Assembly: GCA_019637585.1 (NCBI GenBank)
Contig: JAHBVL010000001.1
Span: forward strand, 62,001 to 126,000
Direction: 5' to 3'
Length of the DNA stretch: 64,000 nucleotides
Source of the DNA: Thermomicrobiales bacterium
GTDB lineage: Bacteria > Chloroflexota > Chloroflexia > Thermomicrobiales > UBA6265
Shown here in pieces: positions 8,534-22,578 of the stretch. How positions within the stretch are numbered: the stretch's first letter is position 1; the number at the start of each line of letters is the position of its first letter. The position numbers and the translations under genes are program-made. The notes below the pieces were generated by a model. It had not been told where the DNA came from. It searched no databases and worked only from the letters and a program-made list of their open reading frames with translations.

Positions 8534-9070
8534 CTAGTCGAAAAGCGCGGCAGCCGGAAATGTCAGATCCGGCAATACCGGTGCGCCACTGACCATCGCT
8601 GAGTCGCCGTAGACGCGGGGCGCGTTGTCGGGTTCGTAGACAGTGATCTGCCGCTCGCGCGGATAGACGATCCAGACACAGCGCACACCAGCCTGCAGGT
8701 AGATCGCCAGCTTCCGCTCGATTTCTCCCGGGGCGTTGCCCGGAGAAACGATCTCCACGGCAAGGTCGGGCGCCACCGACAGATATCCTCGCCGATTCTC
8801 CGGGAGACGGTCAGATAGCACAAACGAAACATCAGGACCTAGAACGGTGTCGGGATTCCGCTGCAGAACGTAGCCAGTGTCGCCAAAAACCTTGCCGGCC
8901 TCGCGCGTAGAAACGAACTCCCGAATGATGCCGATCAGGTTCGCCTGAATCTCCCCGTGTTCACCGCCCGGTGGCGTCATGGGCGCCAACTCTCCCTCGA
9001 TCAGTTCGACATGCTCGGCTTCTTCCAAATTCCAGAGGTCTTTGGCGGTTCGTAACTGCGTTGTAACCAT
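8534..9070 (-). CDS. Uma2 family (DUF820) putative endonuclease, copy 1
   Basis: 178 residues from the ATG at 9070, which has GAGG 8 nt upstream; an in-frame ATG at 9109 has no such site. The PD-(D/E)XK-like core is visible: GPDVSFVLSDR, then APDLAVEIVSPGNAPGE and later VRCVWIVYPRERQITVYEP. Uma2 proteins are small restriction-endonuclease-fold proteins, abundant in cyanobacteria and Chloroflexota, with no settled role. This copy is the most divergent of the four in the window: it carries SPGN where the others have SPTD. It ends 47 nt from the 3' end of the convergent amidase gene. Confidence 0.9.
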   Translation of the reverse strand: MVTTQLRTAKDLWNLEEAEHVELIEGELAPMTPPGGEHGEIQANLIGIIREFVSTREAGKVFGDTGYVLQRNPDTVLGPDVSFVLSDRLPENRRGYLSVAPDLAVEIVSPGNAPGEIERKLAIYLQAGVRCVWIVYPRERQITVYEPDNAPRVYGDSAMVSGAPVLPDLTFPAAALFD

Positions 9071-9212
9071 GGTCGCTGCCTCGGATGCTTGTATGGAACG
9101 CCAGGACAAGTCTGTCAGCCAGAACCGGAGATAGCAAGGTCACGCGCGCCGGTCAGCAACACCCAGATAGCCGGCATATCCAACAACGATCGCTGGAGCG
9201 GATGGTTCTGCT

Positions 9213-13676: not shown

Positions 13677-15137
13677 CTACGGAAGCCGCACTGCCAACGC
13701 CATCTGCGCCATGCTGTCCCACATCCGCATGAAGTTCGTCCAGCCGATAACCCGCTTGCGCCGGCTCGAATCGGGATCGGAAATCAGCACGCCTTCGTCG
13801 TTGTATCCGTAGCCACAGACGACATGCGATTGCGTGGCCATCAGCACCTGCTGTCCGCCGATGTCCATCATGAAGCTGGATGTGTAGCCAAGATCGATCC
13901 AGAGCACGACCGGATGGTGTGCGGCAAGCTCGGCGATGAGTTCATCCTTCCCGCCAGTGAGAATGGTCCCTACAAAGCCGAACTGAGCCAGCGCGGGCAC
14001 CAGCGGCTCAGGGTAGATGCCATAGTCCTCGTACCCATAGATGAACGTCCCGTCGATGTTGCCCCGGAACGCCACATGCGGATTGGGATTTGTTCCGATG
14101 AGCGGAATGAATCGGTTCTCATCGATTTCATTGCCCAGCCCGGCGGTGGCAATCTGGCACGACGCATATTCGCAGCTCAGACTGTGCTTCTGCTGATGTG
14201 TCGGCACCCACATCGATGCCGATGGTCCGCCAAAGCGCAGGTAAGGTCCAAAGGAATATCCCGTCGTACCGTGATAGGCGCCCCGGTACCAGTCTCCCGA
14301 TTGACTCTCGATCTCTACGGTTTCTCCGTAGAGCATCTGTTTGATGACCGAGGTCGATGTCGAAGCGCCGGTGCGGAGATTCAGGACATCGGTCGCCACC
14401 GTCGCTGTCTGCGCGCTCGTCGAACCGTTCATCGTCAGGTAGGTCGAAGCCACCCAGCCGGTAGTCCCAGCGGCAGCCACCTGCGCCCACCCGCCCGACG
14501 GAGCGGTCACGATCGTCACGATCTGTCCCTGATTCAACACGGTGAGCACGCTGTATGACGTGCTCGGACCACTGCGCAGATTGAGCTTCGCGACATTGAC
14601 AGTCGCCGTGTCACTCCCTGCCGGAGGCTCCGAGCCACCGGGAGTCACCGTCAGATAGTCGCCGGACGCCCACCCCTGTGTTCCATCGAAAACGACCTTG
14701 TACCAGCCTCCCGACGGACCTTCCAGCACCGAGACCACCGTATTCAGCGGCATCTTGCCGATGACGCCATATGTCGTGGCTGGTCCACTGCGCAGATTCA
14801 GAATGCTCGTCGTCACCTTGGCCGTGGTTCCGGTCGGAGGCGTCGAAGCATCCGGGGTGACCGTCAGATAGTCACCCGACGCCCAACCAGTCACGCCATT
14901 GGCATTGACCCGGTACCAGCCTGCGTTCGGTCCTTCCAGAACCTGCACGACCTGGTTCAGCGTCATCCGCCCGATCACAGAGTTCGAAGTGCCCGGTCCG
15001 CTGCGCAGGTTCAGAACGTCAGTCGTTACCCGAGCCGATCCAGTCACTGCGCCAGCCCGCTGCATCCCCAGAAGCGGAATCGCCAACGCGCCGGATGCCG
15101 CCGCAATTACCTGTCGCCGGTTGATCGCCCCCGACAT
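13677..15137 (-). CDS. Tat-exported protein with four SH3b domains and a C39-like peptidase domain
   Basis: 486 residues. The N-terminus INRRQVIAAASGALAIP is a twin-arginine signal. Four bacterial SH3 domains follow (about 34-94, 106-166, 178-236, 243-305), each with a LNLRSGP/LNLRTGA signature and a GW/GYSFG end. The C-terminal ~170 residues form a Peptidase_C39_2-like cysteine peptidase: SLSCEYASCQIA supplies the candidate Cys, ATQSHVVCGYGYND the His and VLISDPDSS the Asp. The predicted role is an extracellular peptidase targeted to the cell wall. The start has a G-rich SD (GGGGGTGGGGG) directly upstream. Confidence 0.87.
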   Translation of the reverse strand: MSGAINRRQVIAAASGALAIPLLGMQRAGAVTGSARVTTDVLNLRSGPGTSNSVIGRMTLNQVVQVLEGPNAGWYRVNANGVTGWASGDYLTVTPDASTPPTGTTAKVTTSILNLRSGPATTYGVIGKMPLNTVVSVLEGPSGGWYKVVFDGTQGWASGDYLTVTPGGSEPPAGSDTATVNVAKLNLRSGPSTSYSVLTVLNQGQIVTIVTAPSGGWAQVAAAGTTGWVASTYLTMNGSTSAQTATVATDVLNLRTGASTSTSVIKQMLYGETVEIESQSGDWYRGAYHGTTGYSFGPYLRFGGPSASMWVPTHQQKHSLSCEYASCQIATAGLGNEIDENRFIPLIGTNPNPHVAFRGNIDGTFIYGYEDYGIYPEPLVPALAQFGFVGTILTGGKDELIAELAAHHPVVLWIDLGYTSSFMMDIGGQQVLMATQSHVVCGYGYNDEGVLISDPDSSRRKRVIGWTNFMRMWDSMAQMALAVRLP

Positions 15138-17839: not shown

Positions 17840-19843
17840 ATGCTGAACGGACGAAGAATCGGCAACCGGGCCAAAGAGGGGGGGACGGCCTCGCGCCTCA
17901 CACTCCTGCTGGCACTAACGCTCATGCTCGCTGGACTGGCGCCGTTTGTCAGCCCAGCCCCGGCGGCCGCGCAGAACATCAACATCTCGCTGAGCAAAAC
18001 TGTCTGTGCGCCAGGATTCGATGACAGCGGACTGAACCTGGCCGGATTGCAGGGAAGTGGCCAATGCGACACGCCCGGAGCCGGCATTCCGTTTTCGCTG
18101 GTTCCGGACAATGGCAGCCCCGTCTCCGCGAATGCTGATGCCAGCGGTATCGTCATCTTCTCAGGAGTCACCGCGGGCACGGGCTTCATCGCCGAAACAG
18201 CCGCGGAGATGAGCTATTCCCGCGTTTTCTGCTCGGTCTATCCCACCGGCGGATCGCTCCCCGGTCTCGACACCTATACCGAGGTCAACGCCACATCCAA
18301 TGTCATCGGCTATTCGCTCAATGACAACGAGAGCGTTGATTGTTTCTGGTTCAACATCCCCGAGGCCGGCGGCGACGATCTCTCGATCGTCAATGTCTTC
18401 AAGTACGCCTGCCCTGAGGGCGTCGACTTGACCGGCAATCTCATCGGCGTGTGCACCACCGCCATGCCAGGCGTCCAGTTCTACCTCTACCCAAGTGACA
18501 ACACAGAAATCCCGGGCGTCACCGACGAGAGCGGATTCACGATGTTCGAGAACGTTCCAGGCGGCGTGCTCAATCTGCTGGAAGTGCCGCCGGATGGCTA
18601 TCAGCCAGCGGCGGTCTTCTGCGCTTCAGCCCCTGGAGGCAGTGGTCAAACCCCCGATCCTGAACCGATCGAGCTCATCGACGGCGCCATGATCGAATAC
18701 GCCCTCGATCCTGGCTACTATCTCTCCTGCTTCTGGTACAACACCCCAGAAACAGAGCAGGCCGCCGTGCGACTCACGAAGTACGCATGCCCGGAAGACT
18801 ATGACTGGGCCAACGCCAGTCTCGAGCAGATCTATGCCGCCTGCGAAACTCCGCAGACCGGCGTCCACTTCTTCCTCGGCGGTCCGGCTACCGAGATCGA
18901 GCAGGTCACCAACGAACAAGGGCAGGCAACCTGGAACATCGATCCCGGTGACTATCACCTGCGGGAGACGCTGCCCACTGGCTACATCGCCACGCGCGTC
19001 TTCTGCAGCGTGAACATCGAAGGCGGCGGCACGATCAATGAAATGCAGCTTTCCCAATCGTCCTTCCCGATTTCCCTGGGATCGGGCGATGTGATGGATT
19101 GCGCTGTCTTCAATCTGGCCGGCGTCGTCGACGCGGGTCCGGCATCGTTGACGATCAACAAGTACACCTGCCCGGCAGGCTTCGATGTCCTGGCCGAGGG
19201 CGCGGATCCAGCGGAGTGCTCGCTGGGCACCGACGATATCAACTTCCTGCTCGAAGGCGACGCGGGCCAGCTCAGCGCCTCCACCGGCACCGGCGGAGCC
19301 CCGGCGACCGTCACGTTCTCCGATCTGGAATCGGGCGTCTATCTCCTTACTGAGGAAACCCCTGAACCCATCGACATGGCCTTCATCCTGACCTGCACCA
19401 GCGACGTTCGGACCTTCAACTATCCGTTCGCGCCCTTCGCGGTGATCGAGCAAGGCGGTCGTATCGTGGTCCAACTCCTGCCAGGTGAGGATATGAGCTG
19501 CTCCTGGTACAACGTGCTCGAAGACCAGCCAGGTACGGTCACCATCACCAAGTACTGGTGCGACGGCCAGGCCGGTAGCCTCACCAACTGCGCGCCATTC
19601 GCCGGACTGATCAATTTCGTTCTCACTCCCACCGATGGCGGCGACCCCATCACCCTGCAAACCAGCGGCAGTGAAGGCACTGGCGTTGTCGAAGCCACCG
19701 GCACCTTCGAAGTCGAAGAGCAGAACTTCACCTGGTGCGCGGCCGAATCCGACTTCGTCGACGCCAATGGCAACCTCCTCGTCGAACCCGGTGCGGATGT
19801 CACCGTCGAGGTCTACAACTGCGGTCCCCGGCCGCTGCAATAG
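17840..19843 (+). CDS. Secreted protein A: five cysteine-bearing CnaB/SpaA-like modules
   Basis: 667 residues. A signal peptide (LTLLLALTLMLAGLAPF... to about 45) is followed by five modules (about 50-172, 182-302, 311-425, 437-558, 568-662) and no LPXTG motif, membrane anchor or repeat linker. Each module starts with a strand containing Lys three residues before Cys (FKYACP, LTKYACP, INKYTCP), has a second Cys ~20-25 residues later, a Glu in a strand before a turn (LLEVPPDGY, LRETLPTGY), a third Cys (VFC) and ends C-x-W-[FY]-N or a close variant. The Lys, Glu and Asn sit where CnaB domains form Lys-Asn isopeptide bonds. The cysteines predict two disulfides per module. GGAG precedes the ATG. 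Confidence 0.8.
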   Translation: MLNGRRIGNRAKEGGTASRLTLLLALTLMLAGLAPFVSPAPAAAQNINISLSKTVCAPGFDDSGLNLAGLQGSGQCDTPGAGIPFSLVPDNGSPVSANADASGIVIFSGVTAGTGFIAETAAEMSYSRVFCSVYPTGGSLPGLDTYTEVNATSNVIGYSLNDNESVDCFWFNIPEAGGDDLSIVNVFKYACPEGVDLTGNLIGVCTTAMPGVQFYLYPSDNTEIPGVTDESGFTMFENVPGGVLNLLEVPPDGYQPAAVFCASAPGGSGQTPDPEPIELIDGAMIEYALDPGYYLSCFWYNTPETEQAAVRLTKYACPEDYDWANASLEQIYAACETPQTGVHFFLGGPATEIEQVTNEQGQATWNIDPGDYHLRETLPTGYIATRVFCSVNIEGGGTINEMQLSQSSFPISLGSGDVMDCAVFNLAGVVDAGPASLTINKYTCPAGFDVLAEGADPAECSLGTDDINFLLEGDAGQLSASTGTGGAPATVTFSDLESGVYLLTEETPEPIDMAFILTCTSDVRTFNYPFAPFAVIEQGGRIVVQLLPGEDMSCSWYNVLEDQPGTVTITKYWCDGQAGSLTNCAPFAGLINFVLTPTDGGDPITLQTSGSEGTGVVEATGTFEVEEQNFTWCAAESDFVDANGNLLVEPGADVTVEVYNCGPRPLQ

Positions 19844-19857
19844 GCAGAACACGCCAC

Positions 19858-19881
19858 GGGCCGGTCCTCACGGACCGGCCC
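19858..19881 (+). terminator. Hairpin after secreted protein A gene
   Basis: A perfect 10-bp stem (GGGCCGGTCC with GGACCGGCCC) closed by a 4-nt loop, 15 nt after the stop. There is no T-run, so termination is inferred. Confidence 0.6.
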
Positions 19882-19889
19882 CAGGGAAT

Positions 19890-20031
19890 CCCTCACCCCC
19901 GACCCCTCTCCCGACCGCGGGAGAGGGGAGAAGGCATCTTTCCTTCCCGCCGTCTTGCTCGCCGTCTTCCCGTCTTGCCGTCTTCGTCCTCACCCCCGAC
20001 CCCTCTCCCGACCACGGGAGACGGGAGCACG
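19890..20031. repeat. Two copies of a CCCTCTCCCG palindromic repeat flanking a period-8 array
   Basis: Copies at 19890-19930 and 19987-20031 share CTCACCCCCGACCCCTCTCC followed by CGACC(G/A)CGGGAGA and can fold into hairpins. A third, inverted copy is at 32823-32861. Between them 19949-19987 is a degenerate period-8 array of CCGTCTTG/C. Confidence 0.75.
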
Positions 20032-20033
20032 TG

Positions 20034-20098
20034 CTATTTCCTATCTCCCATCTCCCATTTGCCTTTTGCCCTTTGCCCTTTGCCCTTTGCCCTCCGCC
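20034..20098. repeat. Heptad tandem array, unit CCCTTTG/CCCATTT
   Basis: About nine 7-bp units drifting from CTATCTC and CCCATCT through CCCATTT to CCCTTTG. It has the same core unit as the array at 11000. Confidence 0.9.
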
Positions 20099-20199
20099 AA
20101 ATCCGTACCCTTCCCAATTCCCCTCCCACCACCTGACCCTGTACGATAGAAAGACCCTCCCATACGGTGCTCGATTGGTGGACGTGGAAGGATCGACGA

Positions 20200-22578
20200 A
20201 TGAAACGCCTGCAAAACCCTCTCAAACGGACGTCACGGCTCCTGGCCATCGCGGTGATCGCCGTTCTGGCGCTGGGACTCCTGCCGGTCGCTCCGGCCCA
20301 ACCGGTGCTCGCCGCTTCCGGTGAGATCAGTGTCTCGTTCTTCTTCTGCCCGGACGGCTACAACGCTGACGGCGAGGACTTCGGAGACATCGCGGCTGCC
20401 TGCACCACGGCGGGAGCAGGTGTCGAGTTCTCGATGCAACCCACTGGCGCCGCCGCCCAGAACTCGGCGACCGGCGTGGCTGGCGTCGTCTCCTGGCCAT
20501 CGAGTGATCCAGGCGACGGGGTTGTTTCGTGGGTCAATCCCGGCGCCTATGCGTCGTCGGTCTGGTGCTCGGTGCAGGAATCGGGCGAACTGGGACTCAT
20601 CCAACCCAAAACAGTCGATCTCCCGGCCTCGATCGCCTACGACATTCCCGACGACCAGCAAATGAGCTGCTCCTGGTTCGCTTATCAGGCAACGGCAACC
20701 CTGATCGGCAGCGAAATCCGCTTGCAGAAGTGGGTTTGCCCGGATGGCTATGACGCCAGCCTCACCCCCTCGATCGACCTGCTCTGGACCGACTGCACCA
20801 CACCTGGCGCCGGTTTTCCCTTTACTCGCGTGCCGGTCGGTGACGATCCTGTGGAGATGTCAGCCGACGCTGGCGGCGCTATCACCTGGCCGGAATTTCC
20901 TTCGGGAACGGGTTTCGTCGCCGAGATGGCTGCCGAAATGCCGTATTCACGCGTCTTCTGCACCGACTACACCATCGGCGAAATCGGTCTCGCGGTCTAC
21001 AACGAAGTCGACGCCACAGGCAATCAGATCGATTACGACCTCGCCCCCACCGAGGGCATCGACTGCGAGTGGTTCAACTACGCGCCACCTGGCGAAACAA
21101 GCGATCTCATTCTCTACAAGCGAGCCTGCCCGGAGGGCGACTGGAGCACCGCCACACTCGCCGAGCTCTCCCTTGACTGTGTCGACGTGCAACCGGATGT
21201 CACCTTCACCGTCATTGGTCCCTCCTCCAGCGTCGAGGGGGTCACCGATCCGACGGGAGCAGTCGGCTGGTCGCTGCCCAGCGACGCCACCTACACCGTG
21301 GTCGAATCAGCGCCGGATGGCTACGGAGCTTCCCGCGTTTTCTGCTCCTACTACGATCAACTGGTGGGTCCCGGTGAATTTGAAGCGGTCGACGCACCCG
21401 GCAACGAGATCACCCAGCACCTCGAAGCGGGATGGTCGATGGAGTGCTACTGGTTCAACCTGCCGGTCGAGCTCGGCACCATCGTTGTGGACAAGTATGC
21501 CTGCCCCGTAGGGTACGGGATTGGCACCGGCTACGATCAGCTCGCGGCGAACTGCACATCGCCGGTGACTGGCGTGACCTTCACACTGACCCCTGCTGGT
21601 CTCCCCCCGATCGACGGCCAGACCGACAACAGTGGACGCGTTGTTTTCGAGAACGTCCCCCTCGGTGAGGGATCGCTCGACGAGCAGGTACCCAGCCAGT
21701 TCAACTATGTCGAGGTCTTTTGCGCCATCAGCGACGATGTGGCCGCTGGTCCCTACCAGGCGCAGAACATCACCGCCCAGAATGTCATGGGTTACCTGAT
21801 GGAGCCTTCGCAGGTCTGGAGTTGCTCGTGGTTCAACCTCACACTCGAAGCCGGTCCGGCGTCGTTGACGATCAACAAATACACCTGCCAACCCCTGCAC
21901 GACCCGGTCGAGCCATTGCAGACCCTGGCCAACGAATGCGCCGAACCCAATGACGATGTGACATTCACCCTGGAAGCGGTCGATCTCCCCGAGGGAGCAT
22001 CTGCTGGCATGGGCGCATCGACAGGCCCCCAACCAGGACCGGCCAGCGTCGAATTCGCCGATCTCGAAGCAGGGCGCTACGTTCTCACCGAGGAGATTCC
22101 GGACTCCATTCGGCTCGCCTACATCAGCGAATGCCGCAGCGATCAACGCGCCTTCGCTTCGCCACTCTATCCATTCGCCTTCGTCGCACCCGATGGCCGC
22201 TTCCAGATCGAGCTCCTACCCGGCGAGAACGTCGAGTGCGATTGGTACAACATCCTGGACGAATCACCGGGAACCATCACCATCACCAAGTTCTGGTGCC
22301 AGGGTGACGTGATCAACGAGGCGAGTTGCCCCATCTACGATGGCGGCGCCGTGTTCACCCTCATCCCGGCCGAAGGAGGCACACCGATTCCCGCCGTCAC
22401 CGGCGCCGATGGCACGGTGACCGTCGAAGCCACCGGCACATTCGAGGTTCTGGAAGAAGACTTCGAGTGGTGCTCGGCACAATCAGACGCGGCGAACGCC
22501 GATGGTCTGATCGAAGTCGGGCCCGGAGATGAGGTTTCCGTGGAGATCTACAACTGCGGTCTGCAACCGGTTCAGTAG
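20200..22578 (+). CDS. Secreted protein B: six cysteine-bearing CnaB/SpaA-like modules
   Basis: 792 residues from ATG 20200 (AAGGA 7 nt upstream), with signal peptide RLLAIAVIAVLALGLLPVA. Six modules run about 40-162, 170-292, 300-420, 428-547, 556-686 and 693-788. Modules 2-6 carry the K-x-x-C start (LQKWVCP, VDKYACP, TITKFWC), the central Glu and the terminal Asn (CEWFN, CYWFN, CSWFN, CDWYN, then IYNC in module 6). Module 1 lacks all three (SFFFCP, no Glu, CSWFA) but keeps the cysteines. The last two modules match the last two of protein A closely, and the genes are tandem duplicates. There is no anchor, so the protein should be released or held by partners. Confidence 0.8.
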   Translation: MKRLQNPLKRTSRLLAIAVIAVLALGLLPVAPAQPVLAASGEISVSFFFCPDGYNADGEDFGDIAAACTTAGAGVEFSMQPTGAAAQNSATGVAGVVSWPSSDPGDGVVSWVNPGAYASSVWCSVQESGELGLIQPKTVDLPASIAYDIPDDQQMSCSWFAYQATATLIGSEIRLQKWVCPDGYDASLTPSIDLLWTDCTTPGAGFPFTRVPVGDDPVEMSADAGGAITWPEFPSGTGFVAEMAAEMPYSRVFCTDYTIGEIGLAVYNEVDATGNQIDYDLAPTEGIDCEWFNYAPPGETSDLILYKRACPEGDWSTATLAELSLDCVDVQPDVTFTVIGPSSSVEGVTDPTGAVGWSLPSDATYTVVESAPDGYGASRVFCSYYDQLVGPGEFEAVDAPGNEITQHLEAGWSMECYWFNLPVELGTIVVDKYACPVGYGIGTGYDQLAANCTSPVTGVTFTLTPAGLPPIDGQTDNSGRVVFENVPLGEGSLDEQVPSQFNYVEVFCAISDDVAAGPYQAQNITAQNVMGYLMEPSQVWSCSWFNLTLEAGPASLTINKYTCQPLHDPVEPLQTLANECAEPNDDVTFTLEAVDLPEGASAGMGASTGPQPGPASVEFADLEAGRYVLTEEIPDSIRLAYISECRSDQRAFASPLYPFAFVAPDGRFQIELLPGENVECDWYNILDESPGTITITKFWCQGDVINEASCPIYDGGAVFTLIPAEGGTPIPAVTGADGTVTVEATGTFEVLEEDFEWCSAQSDAANADGLIEVGPGDEVSVEIYNCGLQPVQ

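Follow-up and report, generated by a model that had tools for sequence, protein, structure and literature searches.

Tandem CnaB/SpaA-class modules with a fixed four-cysteine framework in two secreted proteins of a Thermomicrobiales bacterium

Background

FimP and FimA of Actinomyces oris and SpaA of Corynebacterium diphtheriae are CnaB pilins in which isopeptide bonds occur together with disulfides. In FimP, the N-domain and the C-domain are both of the CnaB fold and both contain disulfides; the C53-C74 bridge closes a loop right after the isopeptide lysine, its first cysteine being directly behind that residue, and the N-domain has all the triad residues, yet no bond in the crystal (PMC3485203). 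Domain 47I of the giant adhesin of Mobiluncus mulieris was found by mass spectrometry to contain both an isopeptide bond and a disulfide (PMC10619420), and a survey from 2025 reported disulfides in 42.7% of the isopeptide domains of Chloroflexota (PMC12617251). The view taken in a preliminary description of the genes analyzed here, that the known members of this class lack regular cysteines, therefore had to be abandoned: FimP, FimA, SpaA, the Mobiluncus adhesin and that share of the Chloroflexota domains of the survey combine both bonds (PMC3485203, PMC10619420, PMC12617251).

The modules reported here resemble the SpaA/prealbumin-like domains (PF17802, PF24514 and PF19403; CnaB class) in their fold, triad positions, E-box-like region and tandem arrangement, but they are longer and have a fixed framework of four cysteines. 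They share the isopeptide and disulfide combination with FimP, FimA and SpaA, which in contrast have one disulfide per disulfide-bearing domain, not in every domain, and are LPxTG-anchored and polymerised. The Mobiluncus domain 47I likewise has both bonds in one repeated Ig-like domain (PMC10619420), although it has a single disulfide, with cysteines 8 residues apart, and is mixed with ester-bond domains. What is new here is the fixed four-cysteine module, which makes it a variant of the CnaB/SpaA stalk domains; no description of such a uniform four-cysteine bead, or of its fusion with a sortase, was found in the literature searched.

Results and Discussion

Two adjacent genes for four-cysteine modules

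The window, by which we mean the whole analyzed stretch of 64,000 nucleotides, contains two adjacent open reading frames on the plus strand, P0001 and P0002, with five and six tandem modules, respectively. Their features are as follows.

17840..19843, +, P0001: secreted protein of 667 aa; signal peptide and five four-Cys CnaB-like modules; SpaA PF17802 match
17840..17971, +, P0001 signal peptide-like N-terminus, from the sequence; GGAGGT upstream of the ATG
17972..18376, +, P0001 module 1: K/E/N kept, four Cys
18377..18754, +, P0001 module 2: K/E/N kept, four Cys
18755..19135, +, P0001 module 3: K/E/N kept, four Cys; CAVFN variant
19136..19525, +, P0001 module 4: first of the two modules that form the conserved C-terminal doublet
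19526..19840, +, P0001 module 5: short terminal module, Cys after Asn (VYNC); no anchor behind
20200..22578, +, P0002: secreted protein of 792 aa from the ATG at 20200; signal peptide and six modules; SpaA match
20200..20313, +, P0002 signal peptide-like N-terminus, from the sequence
20314..20703, +, P0002 module 1: whole triad replaced together (F/W/A for K/E/N); four Cys kept
20704..21093, +, P0002 module 2: 47% identity to P0001 module 1
21094..21468, +, P0002 module 3
21469..21852, +, P0002 module 4: modelled alone (pLDDT 88.6, pTM 0.82)
21853..22263, +, P0002 module 5: first of the two modules that form the conserved C-terminal doublet
22264..22575, +, P0002 module 6: short variant at the C-terminal end (IYNC); no anchor behind

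The reading frame of P0002 spans 20167-22578 and opens at a GTG (20167), and the ATG at 20200 is the more likely start. The modules are 104-137 aa long. All 44 cysteines of the two proteins, 20 in P0001 (5 x 4) and 24 in P0002 (6 x 4), are inside modules, with exactly four in each. Except for the case of P0002 module 1, which has lost all three triad residues and retains the cysteines, the modules have Lys, Glu and Asn at the CnaB positions (10 of 11), and the Lys is located three residues before the first cysteine, also in 10 of the 11. Alignment of the window modules shows C1, C2 and one Phe in every module, with Lys, Gly, Glu and Asn almost as constant. The eleven copies counted in the preliminary description stand as five plus six, but they are not equal, since nine are full-length (one of them without the triad) and two are short terminal modules. 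Similarly, the C-x-W-[FY]-N motif ascribed to each copy is exact in seven of the 11 modules; P0001 module 3 has CAVFN, P0002 module 1 has CSWFA, and in both short C-terminal modules the fourth cysteine lies behind the Asn (VYNC and IYNC). The four cysteines around the triad, described at the same time, are conserved both in the window and in the relatives.

As had been noted from the sequence, both proteins combine a signal peptide-like N-terminus with the absence of a sortase motif: scanning of the two proteins detected neither an LPxTG-like motif nor a C-terminal membrane segment, and their C-termini lie three residues past the last module match. No hidden sorting signal was seen when the DNA behind the P0001 stop codon was read by eye, and P0002 runs directly into a convergent epimerase gene. 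A pilin-specific sortase is absent beside the two genes, and all five sortases matched in the genome are encoded outside the window. The region between the genes contains two 40-bp repeats (window 19891-19930 and 19988-20027; 95% identical), each consisting of CCTCACCCCCGACCCCTCTCCC followed by the partly palindromic GGGAGAGGGGAG, with no further copy within the window.

Class and fold of the module

Searches with the whole proteins matched the Pfam family SpaA (PF17802) above its cut-off of 23.1 bits (P0001, 56.2 bits, E = 3.9e-15; P0002, 30.2 bits, E = 5.3e-7), and SpaA_4 and SpaA_2 were likewise above the cut-off for P0001. The single modules are divergent: among 73 diverse modules, 23 matched PF17802 and 10 matched SpaA_4 (E <= 0.001). 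NCBIfam gave only weak SpaH/EbpB matches below the cut-off, and phmmer with P0002 found no match among the PDB sequences. A profile made from the module alignment (A2) matched collagen-adhesion proteins, SdrD and BcpA among the sequences of solved structures.

We also modelled P0002 module 4 with AlphaFold2, using only nine window modules as the input. The model (pLDDT 88.6, pTM 0.82) is a transthyretin-like beta-sandwich, and the best Foldseek matches in the PDB were mostly Spy0128, LGG SpaA, SdrD B, CnaB2 and BcpA, with a top E-value of about 3e-4 and TM-scores on the query of just about 0.35-0.56. In the model, the triad takes the positions that it has in CnaB domains: K9 belongs to the first strand (residues 3-12), E72 to an inner one (66-73) and N123 to the last one (115-125). 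Since C12 is at the end of the first strand and C29 is located behind the helix that comes next, we liken the C1-C2 pair to the C53-C74 bridge of FimP; C85 is on the strand 78-89 and C119 is on the last strand. We infer that C1-C2 and C3-C4 are the most likely disulfide pairs of the full-length modules. A model of the C-terminal doublet (pLDDT 85.7) had two-domain pilins as its best matches. The Pfam matches, the model with its PDB neighbours and the comparative evidence, including the co-variation of the triad columns described below, agree with the first assignment of the modules as CnaB/SpaA domains with an isopeptide triad, and their membership in this class is well supported.

Distribution among the Thermomicrobiales

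The module profile matched all 32 genomes (20 genera) of one Thermomicrobiales family, that of the window, and none of the 29 genomes of other families of the order (61 genomes scanned). With a broader profile, the best E-values were 4e-17 to 2e-37 for the family members versus 6e-8 or weaker for others of the class, and the relatives outside the family aligned mostly to the core (about positions 20-90 of the 128 profile positions). When a profile of the C-terminal doublet was run against 400 genomes drawn from the phylum, a strong match was obtained in the own genome only, and six others gave weak, partial matches. The spacing of the four cysteines recurs in more than 130 modules of the relatives (strict column count), indicating that the pattern is not due to chance. 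Exactly four cysteines are present in 167 of 168 full-length modules, a number that includes a selection effect because the profile itself was built from four-cysteine modules. The full four-cysteine form was thus found in only one bacterial family among those sampled.

In a genome of another genus (G002), a GNAT gene, a module gene and a convergent epimerase gene are in the same order as in the window. The syntenic orthologue (L080:2669-3544, -) has a signal peptide and the C-terminal doublet only, with no anchor. Its doublet is 43% identical to that of P0001 and keeps the eight module cysteines, and the Lys is lost in both modules. The synteny suggests that proteins without an anchor are a conserved feature of this locus, that the number of beads is variable and that the disulfide framework outlasts the isopeptide bond.

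Co-variation of the triad and persistence of the cysteines

Among 169 full modules, Asn or Asp was present in all 109 modules with the Lys versus 13 of the 60 without it (Fisher's test, P = 3e-30). The mutual information with the Lys column was highest for the Asn (0.41) and Glu (0.40) columns, and the next value among 127 other columns was 0.17; five of six control columns were non-significant. In a tree-based test of co-loss on the supported branches, the 11 independent pairs gave on average three changes in the same direction, none in the opposite direction and eight without difference. Because few independent losses of the triad are countable, the co-variation is non-significant under this strict control of relatedness. 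All four cysteines were retained in 44 of 54 Lys-less modules (strict column count). As the cysteines outlast the lost triad, the alignments make the disulfides look constant and the isopeptide bond look optional across the modules of the family.

Anchored and sortase-fused relatives

By a simple rule, 49 module reading frames were divided into 18 with no anchor (including fragments and frames cut by contig ends), 16 with a sorting motif and a hydrophobic tail, seven with a fused sortase, seven with the motif only and one with the hydrophobic tail only. The genome of the window itself encodes a protein of the same modules with LPVTG/MPATG motifs and a membrane tail (L020), and two proteins of 936 aa and 1776 aa (L076:5658-8465, at C1:651-655 kb, and L073:2016-7343, on C28) in which arrays of about 6 and 12 modules, respectively, are fused to a sortase with TLITCGG (TLITC motif), GHLN and RT. 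The earlier expectation that surface retention must work differently therefore holds for P0001 and P0002, but not for these relatives. The C-terminal doublet is common to the anchorless and the sortase-fused proteins, and the LPxTG-type protein matches it more weakly.

In the fusions of this genome, YPNTG sits between the terminal module and the sortase. Sortase-fused arrays were also found in six further genomes of the family (L081, L085, L087 with YPDTG, L092, L093 and L097). Four of them (L081:2972-6991, L092:408-4160, L093:2905-8091 and L097:4735-9267) have, as read by eye, two hydrophobic segments separated by an Arg-rich stretch between YPNTG and the sortase. The Arg-rich stretch is RRRFLKR-like and in some cases Tat-signal-like; these four look as though the gene of an LPxTG pilin had merged with that of a sortase to give a polyprotein. 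The records with sortase-fused arrays are MAGs of Thermomicrobiales, Chloroflexia or Chloroflexi, one being UBA6265. The fused domain has the His/Cys/Arg set, and its nearest NCBIfam model is the class F sortase (NF033748; E = 8e-26 to 2e-28), with 90-99 bits against a cut-off of 166; it differs from class F sortases in its location C-terminal to a module array, behind YPNTG. Our literature search returned nothing relevant on sortase fusions or on sortases of Chloroflexi/Thermomicrobia. In one further case (L141:7362-8978 and 8576-9097), a YPNTG array and a sortase lie in overlapping frames, which probably reflects either a frameshift in a fusion gene or a misassembly.

Since the array, the motif and the sortase are in one polypeptide, the enzyme could act on its own chain or on its neighbours. 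A self-contained fibre system of this type, with the anchorless proteins of the window as its secreted partners, is an idea to which we give only a small probability.

Proposed architecture and alternative explanations

We consider it likely that P0001 and P0002 are secreted, anchorless, stalk-type strings of CnaB-like beads with two putative disulfides in each bead and a putative Lys-Asn bond in 10 of the 11, and that they are probably tough stalk or matrix proteins. The search for disulfide machinery found DsbA-like proteins, one of which is a membrane-anchored thioredoxin with CPAC, and no VKOR. After export of the beads, this DsbA-like membrane thioredoxin may oxidise the four cysteines. 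C1-C2 would close the loop after the first strand, C3-C4 would connect the last strand with the one that follows the Glu strand, and a spontaneous Glu-assisted isopeptide bond between Lys and Asn would tie the first strand to the last one in the 10 beads with the triad. Locking at three points by the pair of disulfides and the isopeptide bond would make most beads parts of a stiff rod resistant to proteases and stretching. Such rods presumably work beside sortase-anchored and sortase-fused relatives built from the same beads, and they may be released or bind via the C-terminal doublet that they have in common with the sortase-fused relatives.

It is conceivable, though we think it unlikely, that the modules are CnaB-like folds locked by disulfides in which Lys, Glu and Asn are kept and the isopeptide bond is natively absent or partial. 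Across the family, the triad is indeed less constant than the cysteines, P0002 module 1 lacks the triad, the L080 doublet keeps its eight cysteines with both Lys residues lost, and the FimP N-domain has a full triad and no bond in the crystal (PMC3485203). However, the triad is kept or lost together, with Asn or Asp wherever there is Lys, and this is hard to explain without the bond. Somewhat less probable still is an explanation in which P0001 and P0002 are diffusible or non-covalently attached subunits of a sortase-built fibre, with the YPNTG/sortase fusions as its enzyme-bearing base; the anchorless proteins would then be components of the shaft or matrix. The distribution of the C-terminal doublet, common to the anchorless and sortase-fused proteins and weaker in the LPxTG-type protein, and the two sortase fusions in the own genome are consistent with this explanation, but P0001 and P0002 are without a sorting signal, and their genes are not next to those of the fusions, the window being at C1:62-126 kb and the fusions at C1:651-655 kb and on C28.

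Four cysteines are also the number of a metal site, and extracellular matrices can be held together by disulfides. Nevertheless, it is very improbable that the cysteines bind metal or link different molecules so that the modules form a network and are not locked internally, because the cysteines are strictly four, are placed at strand ends and on neighbouring strands in the model, and have intramolecular counterparts in the disulfides of FimP and the Mobiluncus adhesin (PMC3485203, PMC10619420).

Under the preferred explanation of doubly bonded, anchorless bead strings, the contribution of each bond is directly testable, since nature provides triad-less modules in which the four cysteines are unchanged. 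The finding would add an uncultured branch of Chloroflexota to the bacteria with doubly cross-linked surface proteins. The sortase-fused arrays of these genomes also pose the question of self-processing, in which a sortase would act on the chain that contains it, and the modules could be used as hardened building blocks.

Other proteins of the window and the genome

The minus strand of the window at 13677-15137 encodes four SH3_3 domains and a C39-like peptidase domain behind a Tat-like N-terminus (NRRQVIAAASG). Elsewhere in the genome, L016:764-11950 (on C15, cut by the contig end) encodes a giant protein of over 3700 aa, in which more than 30 SpaA modules were counted. In most of them, two cysteines are spaced by 9-16 residues (GGACF...VCDN), so that this genome has two distinct cysteine designs.
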